From Opitutales bacterium (GTDB lineage Bacteria > Verrucomicrobiota > Verrucomicrobiia > Opitutales > Seribacteraceae), in NCBI GenBank assembly GCA_028042835.1, contig JAOFOL010000019.1, positions 1-35,173 on the forward strand: a stretch of 35,173 bases of DNA, written 5' to 3'. The notes under the pieces are model-generated. The model was not told where the DNA came from. It did no database searches and worked only from the letters and a program-made list of their open reading frames with translations. The position numbers were made by a program, and so were the translations under genes. Shown one piece after another: positions 2,521 to 12,021 of this stretch. How positions within the stretch are numbered: position 1 is the first letter of the stretch; the number at the start of each line of letters is the position of its first letter.

Positions 2521-3951
2521 GTGGCAAGAGATTCTTTAGCAAATATAAAAGATTATTACGATGTGGTGGTGATCGGGAGCGGTCTGGGTGGACTCACCGG
2601 TGCAAACTGTTTGGCTAAACAAGGACATTCGGTCCTCCTGCTAGAACACCACTACCAGTTCGGCGGTCTGGCTACCTGGTTTAAGAGGGCAGGAGGTCAT
2701 ATATTCGATATCTCTCTTCATGGATTCCCTGTTGGCATGATTAAGTCATGCCGGCGTTACTGGACAAAAGAAATTGCCGATTCTATCGTGCAGTTAAAGA
2801 ATATACGTTTCATTAACCCTCAGTATGATTTAAAGACTACATTCGACAGATCGGACTTCACTAAAATCCTTCAAGGTACATTCCATATTGCTAAAAGTAA
2901 GATCGAAGAGTTTTACGACCATCTTTCAAATATGGACTATTTCGAGAATGATAAAAGGTCTATAGGTGATCTACTCGAAGAATTTTTCCCAGGACGGAAT
3001 GAAATTAAGAGACTTTTACTTGAGCCCATTTCTTATGCAAATGGATCTTCACTCCTAGACCCTGCAATTGCTTATGGCATTGTTTTTTCTAATTTCATGA
3101 GAAAAGGTATCTATACATTTAAAGATGGAACAGACTCCTTGGTCAAAAAAATGGTTAAAGAACTCAGGAGCAACGGAGCAGACTTGCGCAGGCAATGCTT
3201 AGTTGAAGAAGTAATGACTAGTCTCGAAGGAGAGCAGCATAAAGTTCAAGGGGTTAAAGTAAATGGAAAGACAATCAAATGTGGTGCAATTTTATCGAAC
3301 GCTAACCTTAAGAATACGGTTGAAAAATTATTCGGGTTAAGCAAGTTACCCAAAAAATTTGCTGAACAAGCTAAAGCAGTCAGATTAAATTCAACCTCTT
3401 GCCAGGTTTATATTGGTCTCAAAAAGGATGCACTTATACCTGATGTGGGAGACCTGATCTTCACCTCTGATGCTAAAACTTTCTCCACAGAAGAATTAAC
3501 CAGTCTTAATACCACAAGTCGAACATTCTCAGTTTACTACCCGGACACAAGACCAGATCGAAAAGAACCAAGATTTAGTATCGTTGCTTCGATCAATGCT
3601 AAATGGCAAGATTGGAAAAATTTATCAGATGAAGATTATACAAAGGAAAAAGCCAGACTCTGTGAAGAGTCTGTTGTCGCATTAGAGAAAATCATTCCAG
3701 ATGTACGTTCTAAAATAGATCATCTTGAAGCTGCAACTCCCCGAACAATCCAACATTACACCCACCATGCTTCAGGAGCTTCTTTTGGCACTAAGTTTGA
3801 AGGTTTGGATGTGTCAGCACAACTTCCTGATCACGCACCCGGTCTATACCATGCGGGTTCAGTGGGCATCATCATGTCAGGTTGGCTTGGCACGATAAAT
3901 TATGGTGTAATCACCGCAAATAAAATTGATCGCTTTTTACGAGGAAAATAA
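2521..3951 (+). CDS. CrtI/phytoene-desaturase-like FAD-dependent oxidoreductase
   Basis: The N-terminal Rossmann motif (G19-S-G21-L-G-G24, with acidic E42 ending the second strand) binds FAD. The segment [19 protein letters not shown] is typical of the amine-oxidase/CrtI superfamily, and the C-terminal [18 protein letters not shown] is the second FAD-contact region. Length (476 aa) fits phytoene desaturases, carotenoid isomerases and retinol saturases. No carotenoid synthase (crtB) is present. Downstream are FabZ-, FabI-, OleA- and OleB-like genes, so desaturation, isomerisation or saturation of a long acyl or polyene chain is more likely here than carotenoid work; this is inference from context. 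The start is GTG at 2521, closely preceded by an in-frame TGA. A 79-base gap separates it from the next gene, enough for a separate promoter. Confidence 0.85.
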
Positions 3952-4030
3952 TACTTAACCTAGAATTGCTATCCCTTGCTAATTCGGGCTAACTATCTAA
4001 TTCGTATGAATAACTTTAATTTACTATTTC

Positions 4031-4474
4031 ATGGATGACATAAAGCGTAGAATACCGCATCGACCACCTTTCCTTTTTGTGGATCGAATCATTGAAATAA
4101 ACCAAGGGGATGCTACGTGTGAGCTTACCATTCGTGAAGACTTGGATATTTTTAAAGGTCACTACCCCAATAACCCCATATTCCCCGGCGTCCTTACATG
4201 TGAGGCTGTCTTTCAAACAGGAGCTATTTTTCTTTCTGAGAAAATAGGAGAGGATGAATTAAATTCAAATAAGGTAACGCCAGTTCTTTCCAGGATAAGG
4301 GATGCACGATTCAAAAAAATGATCAAACCTGGTGACACTATAATAATCAAGGTTTTCCTGCAGGAACAAATCGGGCAGTTTTACAATCTACGAGGCGAGA
4401 TTCATCTAAACAATAAAGTTGCTAGTACTGTTTCATTTGCCTTGGCCTTAGTAAAAGATAACGAAGATTCATGA
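4031..4474 (+). CDS. fabZ: FabZ/FabA-like 3-hydroxyacyl-ACP dehydratase (hotdog fold)
   Basis: The 147-residue length equals the usual size of FabZ. The start IPHRPPFLFVDRI is the classic FabZ opening. The active site motif FKGHYPNNPIFPG supplies H44, and E58 in TCEAV is the catalytic acid. The enzyme dehydrates 3-hydroxyacyl-ACP to trans-2-enoyl-ACP. The stop codon overlaps the start of the FabI-like gene (ATGA), so the two are translationally coupled. Because the cluster continues with an OleA-type condensing enzyme rather than lpx, fabD, fabG or acpP genes, this copy is probably a pathway-specific paralogue and not the housekeeping fabZ. That is inference; finding a second copy elsewhere would settle it. 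Start ATG at 4031; no strong ribosome site is seen. Confidence 0.85.
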   Translation: MDDIKRRIPHRPPFLFVDRIIEINQGDATCELTIREDLDIFKGHYPNNPIFPGVLTCEAVFQTGAIFLSEKIGEDELNSNKVTPVLSRIRDARFKKMIKPGDTIIIKVFLQEQIGQFYNLRGEIHLNNKVASTVSFALALVKDNEDS

Positions 4475-5286
4475 TACCTGATTTCCTAGGTGTTAATAAG
4501 AAAAGATTTCTTATTACAGGCTTTGCTAACCGTAAAAGTGTAGCATGGCATGTGGCCCAAACCTTAGAGTCTAATGGAGCTGAAATTATTTTTACAGTTC
4601 GTTCAAAAAAGAGATACGAAGAACTAAAGAAATTGATCCCGAATGCACAAATTATTGTCTGTGATTTTGAGAAAAAAAAAGATTTAAATTCTCTACAAGC
4701 TTTTATTGATGACCTTGGAGAGAAAAAGTTGGACGGTATTCTTCATTCTATTGCTTTTGCTCAATATTCAGAGGGGTTAAAGCCATTTCATGAAACCAAG
4801 CTTGAGGACTTTCTGCAAGCGACTCAAATCTCTTCATTTTCACTTATTCAACTTGCGAATATCTGTAAGAAATCACTCACCAATGAAGCGTCAGTTGTAA
4901 CCATTGGTATATCTTCAACCGAAGTGACTGCAGAGAATTATGGATATATGGCACCTGTTAAAGCTTCACTTGAAGCCAATGTTCGGTACTTAGCAAAATC
5001 TTTTTCAGCCTTTAGTACTGTGCGTTTCAACTCAGTAAATGCCGGACCATTAAAAACTTCTGCCTCCGCTGGTATCCCGGGATACCTTGTTAATTATCTT
5101 TACGCTGAGAAATTAACTTATCGAAAAAAGGCATTAGATACAAAAGAAGTAACCAATACAGCTGTATTCCTCCTCGGTTCATGTTCATCAGGGATAAACG
5201 GGCAGGGTATAGTGGTAGATGCAGGAATGGGGCTCAACTATTTTGATAAAGAAGTTGTCGAGTCAGCCATGAAAGTTGCGCCATGA
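4471..5286 (+). CDS. fabI: FabI-like enoyl-ACP reductase (divergent SDR)
   Basis: A 271-residue short-chain dehydrogenase of the FabI type: nucleotide motif ITGFANRKSVAWHVAQ at residues 15-30, core SIAFA at 93-97, catalytic Y157 and K164 spaced as in FabI, followed by KASLEANVRYLA (164-175), and a C-terminal GINGQGIVVDAGMG segment. It would reduce trans-2-enoyl-ACP (or -CoA) with NAD(P)H. In E. coli FabI a further tyrosine (Y146) lies ten residues before the catalytic one; here that position is isoleucine (I147), and the loop ISSTEVTAENY is unusual, so this is a divergent copy that may use another acyl substrate. It overlaps both neighbours by 4 bases (ATGA at each end). Together with the FabZ-like gene it supplies the last two steps of a fatty-acid elongation cycle. 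Confidence 0.85.
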   Translation: MIPDFLGVNKKRFLITGFANRKSVAWHVAQTLESNGAEIIFTVRSKKRYEELKKLIPNAQIIVCDFEKKKDLNSLQAFIDDLGEKKLDGILHSIAFAQYSEGLKPFHETKLEDFLQATQISSFSLIQLANICKKSLTNEASVVTIGISSTEVTAENYGYMAPVKASLEANVRYLAKSFSAFSTVRFNSVNAGPLKTSASAGIPGYLVNYLYAEKLTYRKKALDTKEVTNTAVFLLGSCSSGINGQGIVVDAGMGLNYFDKEVVESAMKVAP

Positions 5287-6314
5287 GTTTTTCCAATGTT
5301 TTTATTGAAAAAATGGCATACTCACTGCCATCAAAAGTCGTAAGTTCTGAAGATTTAGAAACTCAATTATCTCCCCTCTACCAACGGATTAACTTACAAG
5401 TGGGAAGATTGGAATTAATGACCGGTATAAAGGAAAGAAGGTTTTGGGAAAGCAACTTCAAAGCCTCCATGGCTTCAGCCAATGCAGGGATAAACTTACT
5501 CAAAGACGGTGATATTGATCCAGATGAGGTAGACTTGCTTATACATGCTGCCGTGTGCCGCGATCGCCTTGAACCTGCGACCGCATCCTATGTACATAAT
5601 CTCATGGGATTAGGAGAAAAAACTCAAATCCTGGATATTTCGAATGCATGCTTAGGTTTTCTAAATGCATTGATTCTTGCCGGAAGTATGATTGAAAATG
5701 GCACAATAAATAGAGCTATCATTGTAGCTGGAGAGAATGGCAAGCCTCTCGTGGATGAGACTATCAAGTTACTCAATAATGGAAATATGGACCGCAAATC
5801 CATAAAGCCTTACTTTGCTAATCTTACTATTGGTGCCGCCGCCGTAGCATGGTCAATCACTAACAAAGAGAACTGCAATACTGATTCCCCACGCTTAGGT
5901 CAATTTACAGGTTCAACTGATACCACTCACAATAATCTTTGCGAAGGAGACCAATCTGTAGAAGGCATGGTCATGCAGACCGACTCTGAAGAGTTACTTC
6001 ATGCGGGGATTTCAGTAGCTAAAAAAGCCTGGGCTAAATTTCTTGCCAAAACTAGCTGGGCCCCAAGTGATCCACGACTACTAGTCACTCATCAAGTAGG
6101 GAAAGCTCACCAGCTTCAAATAGAAAGTGCTCTTGGCTATAATCCCGATAACAGCTTCAATACATTCCAAACTCTCGGCAATTGCGGGTCGGTATCTGTA
6201 CCTATAACCTACACTCTTGCCTGCGAGGGAAACCCAGACCTGCAAACTCAAAAATCAGCATTACTTGGAATAGGTAGCGGATTATCAAGTTTAATGCTCT
6301 CACTTAATAACTGA
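5283..6314 (+). CDS. oleA: OleA-like head-to-head acyl condensing enzyme (thiolase/FabH superfamily)
   Basis: At 343 residues it carries OleA signatures that set it apart from ordinary FabH: GRLELMTGIKERRFW (41-55), AVCRDRLEPATA (90-101) with E97, the residue that in OleA reaches across the dimer into the active site, and ISNACLGFLN (119-128) with nucleophile C123. H270 in THQVG and N300 in LGNCGSVSVP complete the Cys-His-Asn set, and GIGSGLSS (329-336) closes the fold. OleA joins two fatty acyl-CoAs head to head into a 2-alkyl-3-ketoacid, the first step to long-chain olefins or beta-lactones. The start overlaps the FabI-like stop (ATGA) and the stop overlaps the oleB-like start (TGATG). oleC and oleD, normally neighbours, are absent from the window. 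Acyl-ACP instead of acyl-CoA may be the donor here, judging from the FAS-type partners; this is inference. Confidence 0.88.
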   Translation: MSFSNVFIEKMAYSLPSKVVSSEDLETQLSPLYQRINLQVGRLELMTGIKERRFWESNFKASMASANAGINLLKDGDIDPDEVDLLIHAAVCRDRLEPATASYVHNLMGLGEKTQILDISNACLGFLNALILAGSMIENGTINRAIIVAGENGKPLVDETIKLLNNGNMDRKSIKPYFANLTIGAAAVAWSITNKENCNTDSPRLGQFTGSTDTTHNNLCEGDQSVEGMVMQTDSEELLHAGISVAKKAWAKFLAKTSWAPSDPRLLVTHQVGKAHQLQIESALGYNPDNSFNTFQTLGNCGSVSVPITYTLACEGNPDLQTQKSALLGIGSGLSSLMLSLNN

Positions 6315-7195
6315 TGGCACTTCCAGATTTAATCTACAAGGAATTCCCATTTAAACAGAATTTCTTCAAACAACATGCGGGTTTTCAAATTCATTATGTG
6401 GATGAAGGAAGCAAACAACATTTGCCAACCATCTTTCTTCATGGAAATCCAACCTGGTCTTTTTTTTACCGAAAACTAATTCTTTCTCTGAAAAGTCATT
6501 TTAGGTGCATCGCCCCAGATCATATTGGTTGCGGACTATCAGATAAACCTAGAATCGATAAATTTAAATATGATTTACAGAGTCATAGCGAAAACATTAA
6601 GGGTCTTCTTGATTATCTGAAAATAGAAAGATTTAACCTCGTCGTCCACGACTGGGGTGGTGCGATTGGACTGTCTGCGCTAAAAGATAATTTATCAAGA
6701 ATTAACAAACTAGTTCTGCTGAATACTGCGGCTTTTAATTCCGAAGATGTCCCCAAACGTATTCGCTTCTGCAGAATCCCCTTACTGGGCGAATTTTTTG
6801 TTCGAGGTCTGAATGGATTTGCTGGACCCGCAACTTGGATGGCTACAAAAAAAGGATTATCCAAATCGAGCAAAGCGGGTTTTTTATATCCTTATCAAAA
6901 CTGGAATGACCGAATTGCAGTTTGGAGATTTGTACGGGACATACCTCTAGAGAAGAATCACCCAACAAAAAGCTTCCTTCAATCCACTGAGGAACGCATT
7001 CCTGAATTAGCAAACACGGAGACCCTAGCATGCTGGGGAATGCAAGATTTCTGTTTCCATGGTGGCTTCCTGAATCAGTGGAAAAGCCGAATACCTAATT
7101 TACAAGTTAGTAAATTTCAGGATGCAGGTCATTATCTTTTAGAGGATAACCTTGAAGGTTGTGAAAAGATAATAAGGTCTTTTCTTACAACCTAA
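6314..7195 (+). CDS. oleB: OleB-like alpha/beta hydrolase (beta-lactone decarboxylase, haloalkane-dehalogenase family)
   Basis: A 293-residue alpha/beta hydrolase of the haloalkane-dehalogenase type. HGNPTWSF (43-50) forms the oxyanion region, DHIGCGLSDKP (69-79) is conserved, the nucleophile is D113 in VHDWGG, D245 in WGMQDFCF is the acid, and H273 in DAGHYLLED the base. The cap segment with VLLNTAAF and RGLNGFAGPA matches OleB rather than true dehalogenases. In known ole systems OleB decarboxylates the beta-lactone made by OleC, giving a cis-olefin. It is coupled to oleA by a 1-base TGATG overlap, which strongly supports the ole assignment of both. No beta-lactone synthetase (OleC) is in the window, so it is either encoded elsewhere or the substrate differs. 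Generic annotation as haloalkane dehalogenase would be misleading. Confidence 0.87.
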   Translation: MALPDLIYKEFPFKQNFFKQHAGFQIHYVDEGSKQHLPTIFLHGNPTWSFFYRKLILSLKSHFRCIAPDHIGCGLSDKPRIDKFKYDLQSHSENIKGLLDYLKIERFNLVVHDWGGAIGLSALKDNLSRINKLVLLNTAAFNSEDVPKRIRFCRIPLLGEFFVRGLNGFAGPATWMATKKGLSKSSKAGFLYPYQNWNDRIAVWRFVRDIPLEKNHPTKSFLQSTEERIPELANTETLACWGMQDFCFHGGFLNQWKSRIPNLQVSKFQDAGHYLLEDNLEGCEKIIRSFLTT

Positions 7196-7244: not shown

Positions 7245-7466
7245 GTGCCTAACAAAAAGAACTTGAAGAGCAGGGAAGAGAGGGGAGGAAACCTTGTTTC
7301 TATTGAACCTTTTGATAATACCTCCCGTGCTTACAAAAAAGAAACCCCCAAAAGGGCAGAAACAAGTTTTGGGTTTTATCTAACAATTGCAATTTGGGTA
7401 TTTCTAGTAATTTTTCTATTTTTCATCTACGAAATGGCGATCGAAACATGGGAGAGACTCAAGTAA
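7245..7466 (+). CDS. Small single-helix membrane protein, unknown
   Basis: 73 residues from a GTG start. A basic, hydrophilic N-terminal 40 residues (many K, R and E) are followed by one strong hydrophobic segment at about 44-64 (YLTIAIWVFLVIFLFFIY) and a short charged tail (ETWERLK). Positive-inside reasoning places the N-terminus in the cytoplasm. It overlaps the start of the recombinase gene by 19 bases in another frame, which suggests translational coupling. No family is recognised. The hydrophobic segment argues that it is real; the GTG start and lack of homology leave doubt. Confidence 0.5.
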   Translation: MPNKKNLKSREERGGNLVSIEPFDNTSRAYKKETPKRAETSFGFYLTIAIWVFLVIFLFFIYEMAIETWERLK

Positions 7467-8404
7467 CTAAAGATGAGTCAGACCCAGTTCTGGCAAAAGA
7501 TCTACTACCAGATATTGCCCGGCGATTCCTTATATATATTTCTAAAGAAAGAAGGTTGTCGTCTCATACAACCCGAAATTATGAACATGCCATAAAAGCT
7601 TTTCTCTCATGGTATTCTAAATCTTCTGCTCCCAAGGGTTTAGAAGATGTAGACCGTCTAGATGCTCGCTCATATTTAATCGAAGCTCAATCAAGTCTTT
7701 CAAAAACAACCCTGCGTAATCATTTCTCAGCTTTAAAGGGTTTATTTCGCTTTGCTCAAGAAAGAGAGGGCTATAAAATAAATCCTTTTGCTAATTTAAC
7801 TCTACCTAAACTTGACAAACCTTTACCAAAATTTCTTACGGAAAAACAAGCCCAGACATTAATTCAGAATATCAAAATTTATGATGAAGGAGGTAAAAGT
7901 GGAGAGTTTTTACGAACAAGAGACCAAATTATCATTAAAATTTTATACTCAGGCGGTTTAAGGGTTAGTGAACTTGTCAGTTTAAATTACCAAGATATAG
8001 ATTTCGTAAATGCAACTCTTAAAATTGTGGGGAAAGGGCAAAAAGAAAGGATCACGCCAATCGGAAATAAAGTTTTGCAAGATGTCATTCACTTCAGAAA
8101 CAATCATGCAGTGGACGCATCCACGCAAGCACCTCTCATAATAGGTAAATCTGGCAAGCGTCTCACAACAAGATCTATTCAATTAATCCTGAAAAAAAGG
8201 CTTAAACAAGCAAATCTTCCAGAAGATTTATCCCCACATAAACTAAGGCATTCTTTTGCGACCCATTTACTTGATCGGGGGGCTGACCTTCGGGCAGTAC
8301 AGGATTTACTTGGTCACTCAAGCTTATCCACTACCCAGATATACACACACCTTTCCGTAGCTAGACTTAAGGAAGCACATAAGATTGCCCATCCACGCTC
8401 CTAA
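7448..8404 (+). CDS. xerC: Tyrosine recombinase XerC/XerD
   Basis: A 318-residue tyrosine recombinase with the full catalytic set: R172 (GGLRVSEL), K196 (VGKGQKER), H264 and R267 (PHKLRHSFATHLL), H290 (LLGHSSLSTTQ) and nucleophile Y299 (IYTHLS). An N-terminal SAM-like core-binding domain covers about residues 20-110. Length and the AHPRS tail match Xer recombinases that resolve chromosome dimers at dif with FtsK; XerC fits the ending slightly better than XerD, but I cannot separate them with certainty. I chose ATG at 7448 because Xer proteins begin close to this point. An upstream start at 7394 would add 18 residues lying over the preceding gene. No att-like repeats or phage genes lie nearby, so it is probably housekeeping and not a mobile-element integrase. 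Confidence 0.88.
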   Translation: MGETQVTKDESDPVLAKDLLPDIARRFLIYISKERRLSSHTTRNYEHAIKAFLSWYSKSSAPKGLEDVDRLDARSYLIEAQSSLSKTTLRNHFSALKGLFRFAQEREGYKINPFANLTLPKLDKPLPKFLTEKQAQTLIQNIKIYDEGGKSGEFLRTRDQIIIKILYSGGLRVSELVSLNYQDIDFVNATLKIVGKGQKERITPIGNKVLQDVIHFRNNHAVDASTQAPLIIGKSGKRLTTRSIQLILKKRLKQANLPEDLSPHKLRHSFATHLLDRGADLRAVQDLLGHSSLSTTQIYTHLSVARLKEAHKIAHPRS

Positions 8405-9222: not shown

Positions 9223-9831
9223 ATGTCCTCTCAGAATATATTTCCAATAAATGACCGCTTTGTGACCAGGCAAAAGAAAGAAATTTCTTTTGGTCACAGA
9301 GGTGGAGTCTATTGGTTGTGCGGCTTATCTGGATCAGGAAAAAGTACCCTTGCAATCTCATTGGAAAAATTCCTATTTGAAAAAAACTGCCATTCCATTG
9401 TTTTGGACGGAGATAACCTAAGAAGTGGTATTTGTAACGATCTGGGATTTTCAATGGAAGACCGTAAAGAGAATGTACGTAGGGTAAGTGAAGCGGCTAA
9501 ACTAATGGCAAGTAATGGGTATATTGCAATTGTTTCATTAATTTCACCAACAAAAGAAGTTCGAAGTCTCGCAAAAAAAATAATCGGTGAAGTAGATTAT
9601 TTTGAAATCTTTATAAAATCCACCTTTGAAAAATGCCATGAAAGAGACGTCAAAGGTCTTTATGCTGATTCTGAAAGCGGTAAGATTACCTCATTTACTG
9701 GTAAGGACTCAGTTTTCGAAGATCCAACCACCCCTTGGATGGTAATTGATACTGAGCATGAAACTATCGCCAATTCAGTATCAAAAATTTGTGATGCAGT
9801 TTATAATCAATGTTCAAAACCAAACACTTAG
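9223..9831 (+). CDS. cysC: Adenylyl-sulfate (APS) kinase
   Basis: 202 residues. The P-loop GLSGSGKST spans 34-42, DGDNLRSG (62-69) is the APS-binding signature, RKENVRRVSEAAKL is conserved in APS kinases, and SLISPTKEVR corresponds to the ISP motif. The product phosphorylates APS to PAPS. It is a stand-alone kinase, not fused to CysN as in many bacteria. The stop TAG directly abuts the cysD start codon with no spacer, and the order C-D-N within one transcript points to a single activation unit. No cysH, cysI or sulfotransferase gene follows, so whether PAPS feeds sulfur assimilation or sulfation is not shown by the sequence. Confidence 0.93.
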   Translation: MSSQNIFPINDRFVTRQKKEISFGHRGGVYWLCGLSGSGKSTLAISLEKFLFEKNCHSIVLDGDNLRSGICNDLGFSMEDRKENVRRVSEAAKLMASNGYIAIVSLISPTKEVRSLAKKIIGEVDYFEIFIKSTFEKCHERDVKGLYADSESGKITSFTGKDSVFEDPTTPWMVIDTEHETIANSVSKICDAVYNQCSKPNT

Positions 9832-10737
9832 ATGCGTAACTACAACTTGAACCATTTACAGCAAATCGAAGCGGAAGCCATATATGTGCTTCGTGAAACT
9901 GCTGCTCAATTTGAACGACCTGGCCTGCTTTTTTCAGGAGGCAAGGATTCGATCATCATGGCTCACCTTGCCTCTAAAGCATTTGCTCCAGCCAAGATTC
10001 CCTTTCCATTTGTTCATGTAGATACCGGACATAATTTCGAGGAAACAATAAAATTCAGAGACAAGTTTGTTGAATCCTATGGCGTTCAACTTATTGTTGG
10101 AAAAGTCCAAGAGTCTATAGATAGAGGCACAGCCACCGAGGAAACTGGAGCAAATGCGAGTCGCAATGCACTTCAATCCGTAACCCTGTTGGAAACAATT
10201 GATCGTGAGAATTTCGACGCCTGCTTAGGTGGTGGACGAAGGGACGAAGAAAAAGCGAGGGCGAAAGAACGATTTTTTTCTCACCGTGATGCATTTGGGC
10301 AATGGGACCCGAAGAACCAACGTCCAGAATTATGGAATCTTTTTAATGGTGGAAAAGGGCAGGGAGAAAACTTTCGTGTATTTCCATTAAGTAACTGGAC
10401 TGAGATGGATGTATGGCAATATGCCAAAATTGAAAATATTGAACTACCCAACATTTACTTCGCACACGAAAGAGAAGTCATTGAGAGAAACGGTTCCCTT
10501 TTGGCAGTAACAGATTTTGTAACCCCAACGGAAAATGAAGATATCCTGAAGCAAACAGTTCGCTTTCGCACAATTGGAGATGCTACTTGTACTGGAGCTG
10601 TCGTTTCTGATGCACAAAATATCGATGATGTCATTGCTGAAGTTGCTGCCTCAAGAATAACAGAAAGAGGGGCTCGGGCTGATGACAGGAGATCAGAGGC
10701 AGCAATGGAAGATCGTAAGAAACAAGGATATTTCTAA
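9832..10737 (+). CDS. cysD: Sulfate adenylyltransferase small subunit
   Basis: 301 residues, the normal CysD length. The PP-loop SGGKDS (35-40) binds ATP, FVHVDTGHNF and GGGRRDEEKARAKERFFS are CysD signatures, WTEMDVWQYAKIENIE is the conserved central helix, and the C-terminus RRSEAAMEDRKKQGYF is essentially invariant in the family. With CysN it forms the ATP sulfurylase that makes APS from sulfate and ATP in the cytoplasm. The start ATG follows the cysC stop with zero spacing, and nine bases separate its stop from cysN. Confidence 0.95.
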   Translation: MRNYNLNHLQQIEAEAIYVLRETAAQFERPGLLFSGGKDSIIMAHLASKAFAPAKIPFPFVHVDTGHNFEETIKFRDKFVESYGVQLIVGKVQESIDRGTATEETGANASRNALQSVTLLETIDRENFDACLGGGRRDEEKARAKERFFSHRDAFGQWDPKNQRPELWNLFNGGKGQGENFRVFPLSNWTEMDVWQYAKIENIELPNIYFAHEREVIERNGSLLAVTDFVTPTENEDILKQTVRFRTIGDATCTGAVVSDAQNIDDVIAEVAASRITERGARADDRRSEAAMEDRKKQGYF

Positions 10738-10746
10738 ACCATACTC

Positions 10747-12021
10747 ATGAGCAAAGAAAAAGATTACCTTAAAATGGATATGCTACGCTTCACGACCGCT
10801 GGAAGTGTGGACGATGGTAAAAGTACTTTAATAGGCAGATTGTTTCACGATACGAAATCAATTTTTGAAGATCAACTTGAAGCTATTGAGAAAAGCAGTC
10901 GAAGTCGAGGCGATGAAAACATCAACTTGGCACTACTTACAGATGGTCTGCGCGCTGAGAGAGAGCAAGGTATTACGATTGATGTTGCTTACCGCTATTT
11001 TGCTACTCCTAAGCGAAAATTTATTATAGCGGACACACCTGGTCATATCCAATACACAAGGAACATGGTTACAGGTGCATCAACTGCAAACCTTGCTCTT
11101 ATATTAGTTGACGCACGCAACGGAGTTGTTGAGCAGACTCGCAGGCATAGCTTTATTGCAGACCTTCTGGGAATTAAACATATCGCGGTATGTATTAATA
11201 AAATGGACTTGGTTGATTACCAAGAAGATGCTTATGAAAAAGTACTTCGACAATTTAGTGACTTTGCCAGTCGCCTTGAAAATGTTTCAGAATTAACTTT
11301 CATACCTTTAAGTGCATTACAGGGAGATAATGTTGTCGACCGTTCAGAAAATATGCCCTGGTACAAAGGTCCACCGCTACTTTACCACCTTGAGAATGTT
11401 TATGTAGGTTCTGATGCCAATCATGTTGATTCTCGCTTTCCAGTTCAATGGGTTATTCGACCTCATTCTGATAAATATCATGATTTCCGTGGATTTGCGG
11501 GACGAGTAGCAGGTGGTGTGTTTAAGGTAGGAGATGAAATCAGAGCTCTTCCATCTGGTTTCAGTTCAAGAATTTCTAAAATTTTTATGGGTGATAAAGG
11601 AATTGATGAAGCATTTTCTCCCCAATCTGTAACGATTCAACTAGAGGATGAGATTGATATCAGTAGAGGTGACATGTTAGTCAAACCAAATAATCAGCCT
11701 AAGGTATCCCAAGATTTAGATGCTAGAATCTGTTGGTTCTCTGGTTCAAAAAAATTGATCAAAGGAGGGAAATATCTCATCAAGCATACAACAAAATCTG
11801 CCCAGGCCATGATATCGGAAATATGCTACAAAGTGGATGTGAATACACTTAGGAAAAATGAAGGAGATCAAGAATTTGGCATGAATGATATAGGGAGGAT
11901 AAAATTCCGCACCTCAGAACCGCTTTTCTTTGATACATACAGGAGGAATCGAAATACAGGTAGTTTCATTCTTATTGACCCATTTACCCATCAAACCCTT
12001 GCAGCGGGAATGTTAAGGTGA
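10747..12021 (+). CDS. cysN: Sulfate adenylyltransferase large (GTPase) subunit
   Basis: 424 residues of the EF-Tu-like GTPase CysN: G1 GSVDDGKST at 19-27, switch segment EREQGITIDVAYRYF, G3 DTPGH at 96-100, and G4 NKMD at 151-154, followed by two beta-barrel domains. GTP hydrolysis drives APS formation by CysD. The protein ends soon after DPFTHQTLAAGM and has no C-terminal APS-kinase domain, agreeing with the separate cysC gene. Its TGA overlaps the ATG of the next gene (TGATG), so the downstream unknown gene is translationally coupled to sulfate activation. Confidence 0.95.
   Translation: MSKEKDYLKMDMLRFTTAGSVDDGKSTLIGRLFHDTKSIFEDQLEAIEKSSRSRGDENINLALLTDGLRAEREQGITIDVAYRYFATPKRKFIIADTPGHIQYTRNMVTGASTANLALILVDARNGVVEQTRRHSFIADLLGIKHIAVCINKMDLVDYQEDAYEKVLRQFSDFASRLENVSELTFIPLSALQGDNVVDRSENMPWYKGPPLLYHLENVYVGSDANHVDSRFPVQWVIRPHSDKYHDFRGFAGRVAGGVFKVGDEIRALPSGFSSRISKIFMGDKGIDEAFSPQSVTIQLEDEIDISRGDMLVKPNNQPKVSQDLDARICWFSGSKKLIKGGKYLIKHTTKSAQAMISEICYKVDVNTLRKNEGDQEFGMNDIGRIKFRTSEPLFFDTYRRNRNTGSFILIDPFTHQTLAAGMLR

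Follow-up and report, generated by a model that had tools for sequence, protein, structure and literature searches.

Why does a row of genes that holds oleA and oleB of olefin biosynthesis also hold genes for fatty acid synthesis and a CrtI-like flavoenzyme, and where are oleC and oleD, the remaining genes of the pathway? This question is raised by a five-gene locus of an Opitutales bacterium (assembly GCA_028042835.1, contig JAOFOL010000019.1). The locus lies in a stretch of 35,173 nucleotides, which we analysed as a whole and call the window; it corresponds to contig 22 in a genome bin (G000) of 2.12 Mb, which is 63% complete. We consider it fairly probable that the locus is part of a split Ole pathway, fed by a dedicated module of type II fatty acid synthesis (FASII) and CrtI-like enzymes, in which a special, possibly polyunsaturated acyl chain would be turned into an olefin. 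The locus consists of the following genes.

2521-3951, + strand: CrtI-like flavin adenine dinucleotide (FAD) oxidoreductase (CrtI1), 476 amino acids, GTG start; PF01593 and carotenoid isomerase/desaturase families
4031-4474, + strand: FabZ-like 3-hydroxyacyl-acyl carrier protein (ACP) dehydratase, a second copy; TIGR01750, 100.5 bits (cut-off 155)
4471-5286, + strand: FabI-like enoyl-ACP reductase, in addition to FabV; PF13561, 173.5 bits
5283-6314, + strand: OleA thiolase, predicted to catalyse head-to-head acyl condensation; NF006720, 364.6 bits (cut-off 285)
6314-7195, + strand: OleB-type alpha/beta hydrolase, by context a putative beta-lactone decarboxylase; haloalkane dehalogenase family matches

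An earlier note on this DNA had described a CrtI-like gene in one row with FabZ, FabI, OleA and OleB, where neighbouring frames from FabZ to OleB share 4, 4 and 1 bases. Open reading frames and family scans bear out the row, and the overlaps are exact in the frame coordinates (FabZ/FabI 4, FabI/OleA 4, OleA/OleB 1), while a gap of 79 bases separates CrtI1 from FabZ. Whether the order is conserved was examined in the best 80 of 577 relatives, where contig ends truncate some loci and where flanks with a median of about 8 kb on each side were inspected. All five genes stand in order in 39 of these 80 loci, the order FabZ-FabI-OleA-OleB is kept in 59, and OleB adjoins OleA in 74. The five-gene order is also found in carriers listed as strains and not as bins, among them Verrucomicrobiae bacterium DG1235 (L107) and Puniceicoccaceae bacterium K14 (L106); Cerasicoccus maritimus NBRC 105382 (L085), likewise listed as a strain, carries OleA-OleB only.

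Among solved structures, OleA is closest to 3row, 3s21 and 3fk5, listed as 3-oxoacyl-ACP synthase III, which we take to be the OleA of Xanthomonas campestris. In that enzyme Cys143, His285 and Asn315 are presumably catalytic, and Glu117 is presumably the channel glutamate donated by the partner subunit. In the alignment to 3row these positions correspond to C123, H270, N300 and E97 of the window's OleA, and none of the four varies across the 127 rows. OleB is an alpha/beta hydrolase of the haloalkane dehalogenase type, with the Asn, Asp, Trp and His residues kept in 114 of 114 rows. For such invariance counts we required a length of at least 320 (OleA), 260 (OleB), 130 (FabZ), 240 (FabI) or 420 (CrtI) amino acids, and several genomes are entered twice among the rows, once as an unnamed and once as a named locus. 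Alignment A2 does not include L119 and L087 and some of its ranges were trimmed by one codon; alignment A3 does not include L080 and L119 (range crossed a stop).

The missing partners are found on a different contig of the same genome. The oleC match (G000:C1:110940-112529) reaches 473.5-473.9 bits on NF006754, about 4.5 bits under the cut-off of 478, and the next two best families are also olefin beta-lactone synthetase models. NF006754 is exceeded in 73 of 92 genomes, and 89 of the 92 have some match. For the oleD match (G000:C1:109891-110901) the best family is NF042422, OleD, with 308.8 bits (cut-off 580), followed by the Shewanella OleD model with 290.2 bits; the third, an unrelated family, drops to 118.7 bits. 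The two genes form a pair, with oleD immediately downstream of oleC and an overlap of 4 bases. An OleD-type gene directly adjoins oleC in 9 of 16 regions, and the best OleD match lies away from oleC in G040, G043, G044, G046 and G047. In the single-contig genome G074 (4.32 Mb) about 2 Mb lie between the OleA locus (2.0 Mb) and oleC-oleD (4.26 Mb). Thus oleAB and oleCD are separate throughout the sample, that is, in the 80 loci and in the single-contig genome. Clustering of oleA, oleB, oleC and oleD is usual, not essential, and a survey by Sukovich from 2010 possibly includes cases from Verrucomicrobia in which the ole genes are separated. A neighbour of about 506-551 amino acids near OleB in five loci (fam5) was considered as a candidate OleC and rejected, as four of the sequences read as the 4-alpha-glucanotransferase MalQ.

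The earlier note had stated that OleC and OleD are missing and had suggested that FabZ and FabI replace them, acting on the condensed beta-keto chain to give a ketone, a saturated hydrocarbon or a polyene. The first statement is right for the locus, with neither oleC nor oleD in the flanks of any of the 80 loci, but wrong for the genome. Replacement is favoured by these empty flanks and by the overlaps from FabZ to OleB, which look as if the genes were co-translated. Since the oleC-oleD pair is present in the same genome, and accompanies OleA across relatives, we regard the pathway as split instead and replacement as very improbable. Moreover, FabZ and FabI use ACP thioesters, whereas the product of OleA is a beta-keto acid.

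What, then, is the function of FabZ and FabI next to oleA? FabZ is a second copy, and FabI is a second enoyl reductase. Another FabZ, at G000:C23:5621-6037, scores 172.3 bits on TIGR01750, compared with 100.5 bits for the copy of the locus. In most genomes the better FabZ match sits in a frame of about 430-480 amino acids, which we take to be of the size of an LpxC-FabZ fusion, a name aided by a match to PRK13188. In many relatives we also observed a further FabZ-type domain in frames of about 310-360 amino acids (for example G002:C83:2468-2875). The enoyl reductase FabV (PF12241) occurs in 49 of 57 genomes, the window's own included, and is present as well in G039, G041, G042 and G051, all of them without OleA, OleC and FabI. 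FabV and the larger FabZ-bearing protein therefore look like the housekeeping enzymes, and we rejected the possibility that FabZ and FabI of the locus are the only housekeeping copies. The note itself had counted such sole copies, as well as oleC and oleD elsewhere in the genome, as evidence against its reading; only the latter was found.

FabZ and FabI of the locus match their families under the equivalog cut-offs. The active-site type His and Glu of FabZ are invariant in 99 of 99 rows. In FabI, Ile147 takes the place of the first Tyr of the Staphylococcus aureus enzyme in 101 of 101 rows, while Tyr157 and Lys164 are kept. The predicted model of FabI has a predicted local distance difference test (pLDDT) score of 75.2, which falls below 50 at residues 194-219, and was set aside.

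The distribution of the genes was followed in 57 genomes, 29 of which are at least 90% complete. A strong OleC match is present in all 44 genomes that carry OleA and in 8 of the 13 that lack it; the corresponding counts are 43 and 7 for OleD, and 40 and 5 for a second CrtI-like enzyme, CrtI2. For CrtI2 we applied a threshold of E < 1e-40, which admits a match of 31% in G055. Among the genomes that are at least 90% complete, OleC, OleD and CrtI2 are each found in 23 of 23 with OleA versus 2 of 6 without (Fisher p = 6e-4 each, with no correction for kinship). The latter two are G016 and G053 (92 and 95% complete), where OleC and OleD are present and OleA has no match; on contig 29 of G053, matches of the CrtI1 type and to FabZ lie side by side. 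FabI has a single match (E up to 1e-25) in each of 44 of the 57 genomes, exactly those with OleA. Where genes are linked, the loss of a contig is a trivial explanation of such co-occurrence. In G043, G046 and G040, however, FabI is present though it lies on another contig, outside the OleA region; G036 looks like a contig break.

The CrtI-like enzyme raises the question of its substrate. CrtI1 matches PF01593 as well as carotenoid isomerase and desaturase families, the latter far under their equivalog cut-offs. An AlphaFold model (pLDDT 83.7) is predicted to have the fold of a carotenoid desaturase: the top solved structure is the gamma-carotenoid desaturase 4rep, with template modelling (TM) scores of 0.73/0.71, and amine oxidases rank after it. 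In a tree of 39 rows, CrtI1 and CrtI2 are split with a support of 100/100. A search of a plasmid collection with CrtI1 gave six records of 21.7-57.4% identity and was uninformative.

Family matches and fold could mean that this is a carotenoid or isoprenoid locus, where CrtI1 acts on a carotenoid and the rest are bystanders, and the window's genome does hold one domain of the phytoene/squalene synthase type. On the other hand, 31 of the 44 genomes with OleA, including 17 of the 23 that are at least 90% complete, have no phytoene/squalene synthase, and CrtI1 stays with FabZ-FabI-OleA-OleB in the 39 loci given above. Because of the missing synthase in these 31 genomes, the substrate of CrtI1 is probably not a carotenoid, and we judge a carotenoid locus to be highly unlikely. 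The domain of the window's genome, at G000:C83:210-938, belongs to a frame of 791 amino acids; frames of 742-791 amino acids with such a domain were observed in several relatives.

Further indications come from a larger version of the locus. In 9 of the 80 loci (L098, L100-L103, L119, L121, L126 and L127) the row reads KS-ACP-CrtI2-CrtI1-FabZ-FabI-OleA-OleB, where KS is a ketosynthase. The same order of eight genes is seen in G176 and in the single-contig G074, both possibly among the nine under other names. ACP, FabF-type KS, FabZ and CrtI-like genes occur together in these nine loci and in L207 and L217; the window has FabZ and CrtI-like only. KS-ACP-CrtI2 also forms a separate cluster without OleA in 19 of 20 regions chosen for CrtI2 out of the 45 genomes with a strong CrtI2 match, the exception being L186, and in G062 it follows OleA at a distance of 3.6 kb. 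KS and ACP match the FabF and ACP families under the equivalog cut-offs. In the 90% consensus, KS keeps Cys, His and His (7 rows) and ACP keeps its Ser (9 rows). Before KS, a gene that reads as an NtrC-type regulator was noticed in L176, L178 and L204.

As an alternative to the dedicated chain made before condensation, which the earlier note had also offered, the note's finding could be explained by an ordinary split ole pathway, in which normal fatty acids are condensed and FabZ, FabI and the CrtI-like enzyme serve general lipid metabolism or another product. This fits with the presence of all four of OleA, OleB, OleC and OleD. It fits also with what is seen elsewhere in the phylum. Of 194 genomes in the phylum sample 48 have OleA, and in all 15 regions of other classes (L188-L202) no match to FabZ, FabI, OleC or OleD was found in the region; OleB stands beside OleA in six of them (L189-L193, L201). 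Against it stand the second copies of FabZ and FabI besides the larger FabZ-bearing protein and FabV, the occurrence of FabI in exactly the genomes with OleA, even on another contig, and the joining of KS-ACP-CrtI2 to the locus in nine cases. We hold the ordinary split pathway to be unlikely. A dedicated acyl chain is the best supported reading, because housekeeping FabZ and enoyl reductase genes lie elsewhere, the order of the genes recurs among relatives, and KS, ACP and CrtI2 join the row in 9 of 80 loci; to this extent the earlier note is supported.

We propose that the Ole hydrocarbon pathway is split in two and that this locus is the half in which the chain is made and condensed. A dedicated FASII module, represented here by FabZ, FabI and one CrtI-like flavoenzyme, would build a special acyl chain; in most relatives sampled the module also includes the second CrtI-like enzyme, an ACP and a KS whose catalytic residues are intact. 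The chain most likely contains several double bonds, which may be set or kept by the CrtI-like enzymes. In an order of steps that is partly general knowledge of the Ole enzymes, OleA would join two such chains head to head, OleD and OleC, both encoded on the other contig, would act next, the former reducing the beta-keto acid and the latter forming the beta-lactone ring, and OleB would decarboxylate the lactone to a long-chain olefin. The reactions of condensation by OleA, reduction by OleD, beta-lactone closure by OleC and decarboxylation by OleB are given in a previous account (PMC7064751). The sequence itself shows the content, order and conservation of the genes, the separate oleC-oleD pair, the second copies of FabZ and of an enoyl reductase, and the conserved residues of OleA; what we infer is that OleA receives its chains from the module, that acyl chains are the substrates of the CrtI-like enzymes and that the product is polyunsaturated.

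Several observations weigh against this proposal. The enoyl reductase in the module argues for chains that are at least partly saturated. Haloalkane dehalogenases have the same catalytic residues as OleB, so that the two cannot be told apart from the sequence. OleC and OleD of the window's genome score under the curated cut-offs of their models, and besides G016 and G053, five genomes that are more than 60% complete carry OleC without an OleA match. We noticed no dedicated ketoreductase, although no search was aimed at one. KS and CrtI2 were found neither in the window's genome, at its completeness of 63%, nor in G002, G003, G005, G006, G010, G013 and G025 of the same genus. In L178, KS-ACP-CrtI2 lies near the housekeeping fabF. 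The site expected from L178 coincides with a contig end, or lies just beyond one, in G002, G003 and G025, and we do not conclude a true loss in this lineage. CrtI1 is located upstream in just the 39 of 80 loci, or in 33 of 57 given a long enough flank, OleA is without an adjacent FabI in 14 of 72 testable loci, a count that also suits the ordinary split pathway, and OleA is without an adjacent OleB in 6 of 78. Since the presence of CrtI1 and FabI beside OleA varies, the FASII/CrtI set is not obligatory there. In the openly licensed PMC papers searched, neither a product of any carrier nor an account of this gene set was found.

Downstream of oleB, a XerC-type recombinase gene follows in the majority of loci from the genus and family to which the window belongs (window 7394-8404; L004-L032). 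Several other lineages have a convergent gene, read as malQ, at this position. Further downstream in the window (9223-12021), three genes read as cysC, cysD and cysN of sulfate activation.

Gene sets of a similar kind are known from other bacteria. Rattray et al. described FASII clusters with phytoene-dehydrogenase-like genes in Kuenenia and in Desulfotalea psychrophila; in the latter, C31:8 and C31:9 hydrocarbons and no ladderanes were measured, and a new route to polyunsaturated fatty acids was proposed (PMC2649909). The clusters of Kuenenia stuttgartiensis and D. psychrophila share ACP, FabF-type KS, FabZ and CrtI-like genes with the Opitutae set, a likeness by gene content only (PMC2649909, PMC4790861). 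The Opitutae set, in contrast, is joined to OleA-OleB and has FabI inside, which lies elsewhere in those two organisms, and no radical S-adenosylmethionine (SAM) gene was found among the Opitutae proteins scanned.

The earlier note had been reminded of the gene groups proposed for ladderanes. The likeness holds for the gene content, and nothing points to ladderanes themselves. A ring-forming pathway of the ladderane kind would agree with the genes in common with the Kuenenia candidate clusters. However, no radical SAM domain is present in eight window proteins (Pfam) or in the eight genes of L102 as identified, the KS keeps its Cys, His and His, unlike three Kuenenia paralogues, and Desulfotalea, with similar clusters, gave hydrocarbons instead. 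We give this explanation next to no weight.

The role of the phytoene-desaturase-like genes in the FASII clusters of anammox bacteria is a question dating from 2009, and heterologous expression of the Kuenenia genes left it unsettled (PMC4790861). CrtI-like genes in one row with OleA-OleB provide a genetic tie to hydrocarbon making, beyond a lipid profile alone. It is conceivable, and we suggest it tentatively, that Opitutae possess a new desaturation route, in which FASII and two CrtI-type flavoenzymes, without a Pfa synthase and joined to OleA-OleB, would lead to a polyunsaturated hydrocarbon, for example C31:8 or C31:9. If true, the precursors that are assumed for ladderanes would arise from this core as well, here in Verrucomicrobiota, some of them cultured. 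The lipids of the carrier strains DG1235, K14 and C. maritimus NBRC 105382 are directly testable.

A special acyl source upstream of Ole has a precedent, since in Shewanella and other marine bacteria a Pfa synthase feeds OleA (PMC6463001). Here, the source would be discrete FASII-type enzymes. PfaA was above the cut-off in none of the 57 genomes, with weaker matches in six, and we rejected a Pfa synthase as the acyl source.

With the OleABCD systems of Xanthomonas, Shewanella and Micrococcus, the Opitutae have in common the four catalytic residues of OleA, an adjoining OleB-type hydrolase, and homologues of OleC and OleD in the genome. They differ in that the genes are divided between two loci and do not form one cluster; surveys that require oleBCD beside oleA can misjudge such split pathways. 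They differ further in the company of OleAB, which stands here with FabZ, FabI and a CrtI-like enzyme; in the nine larger loci this group is joined by KS, ACP and another CrtI-like enzyme.

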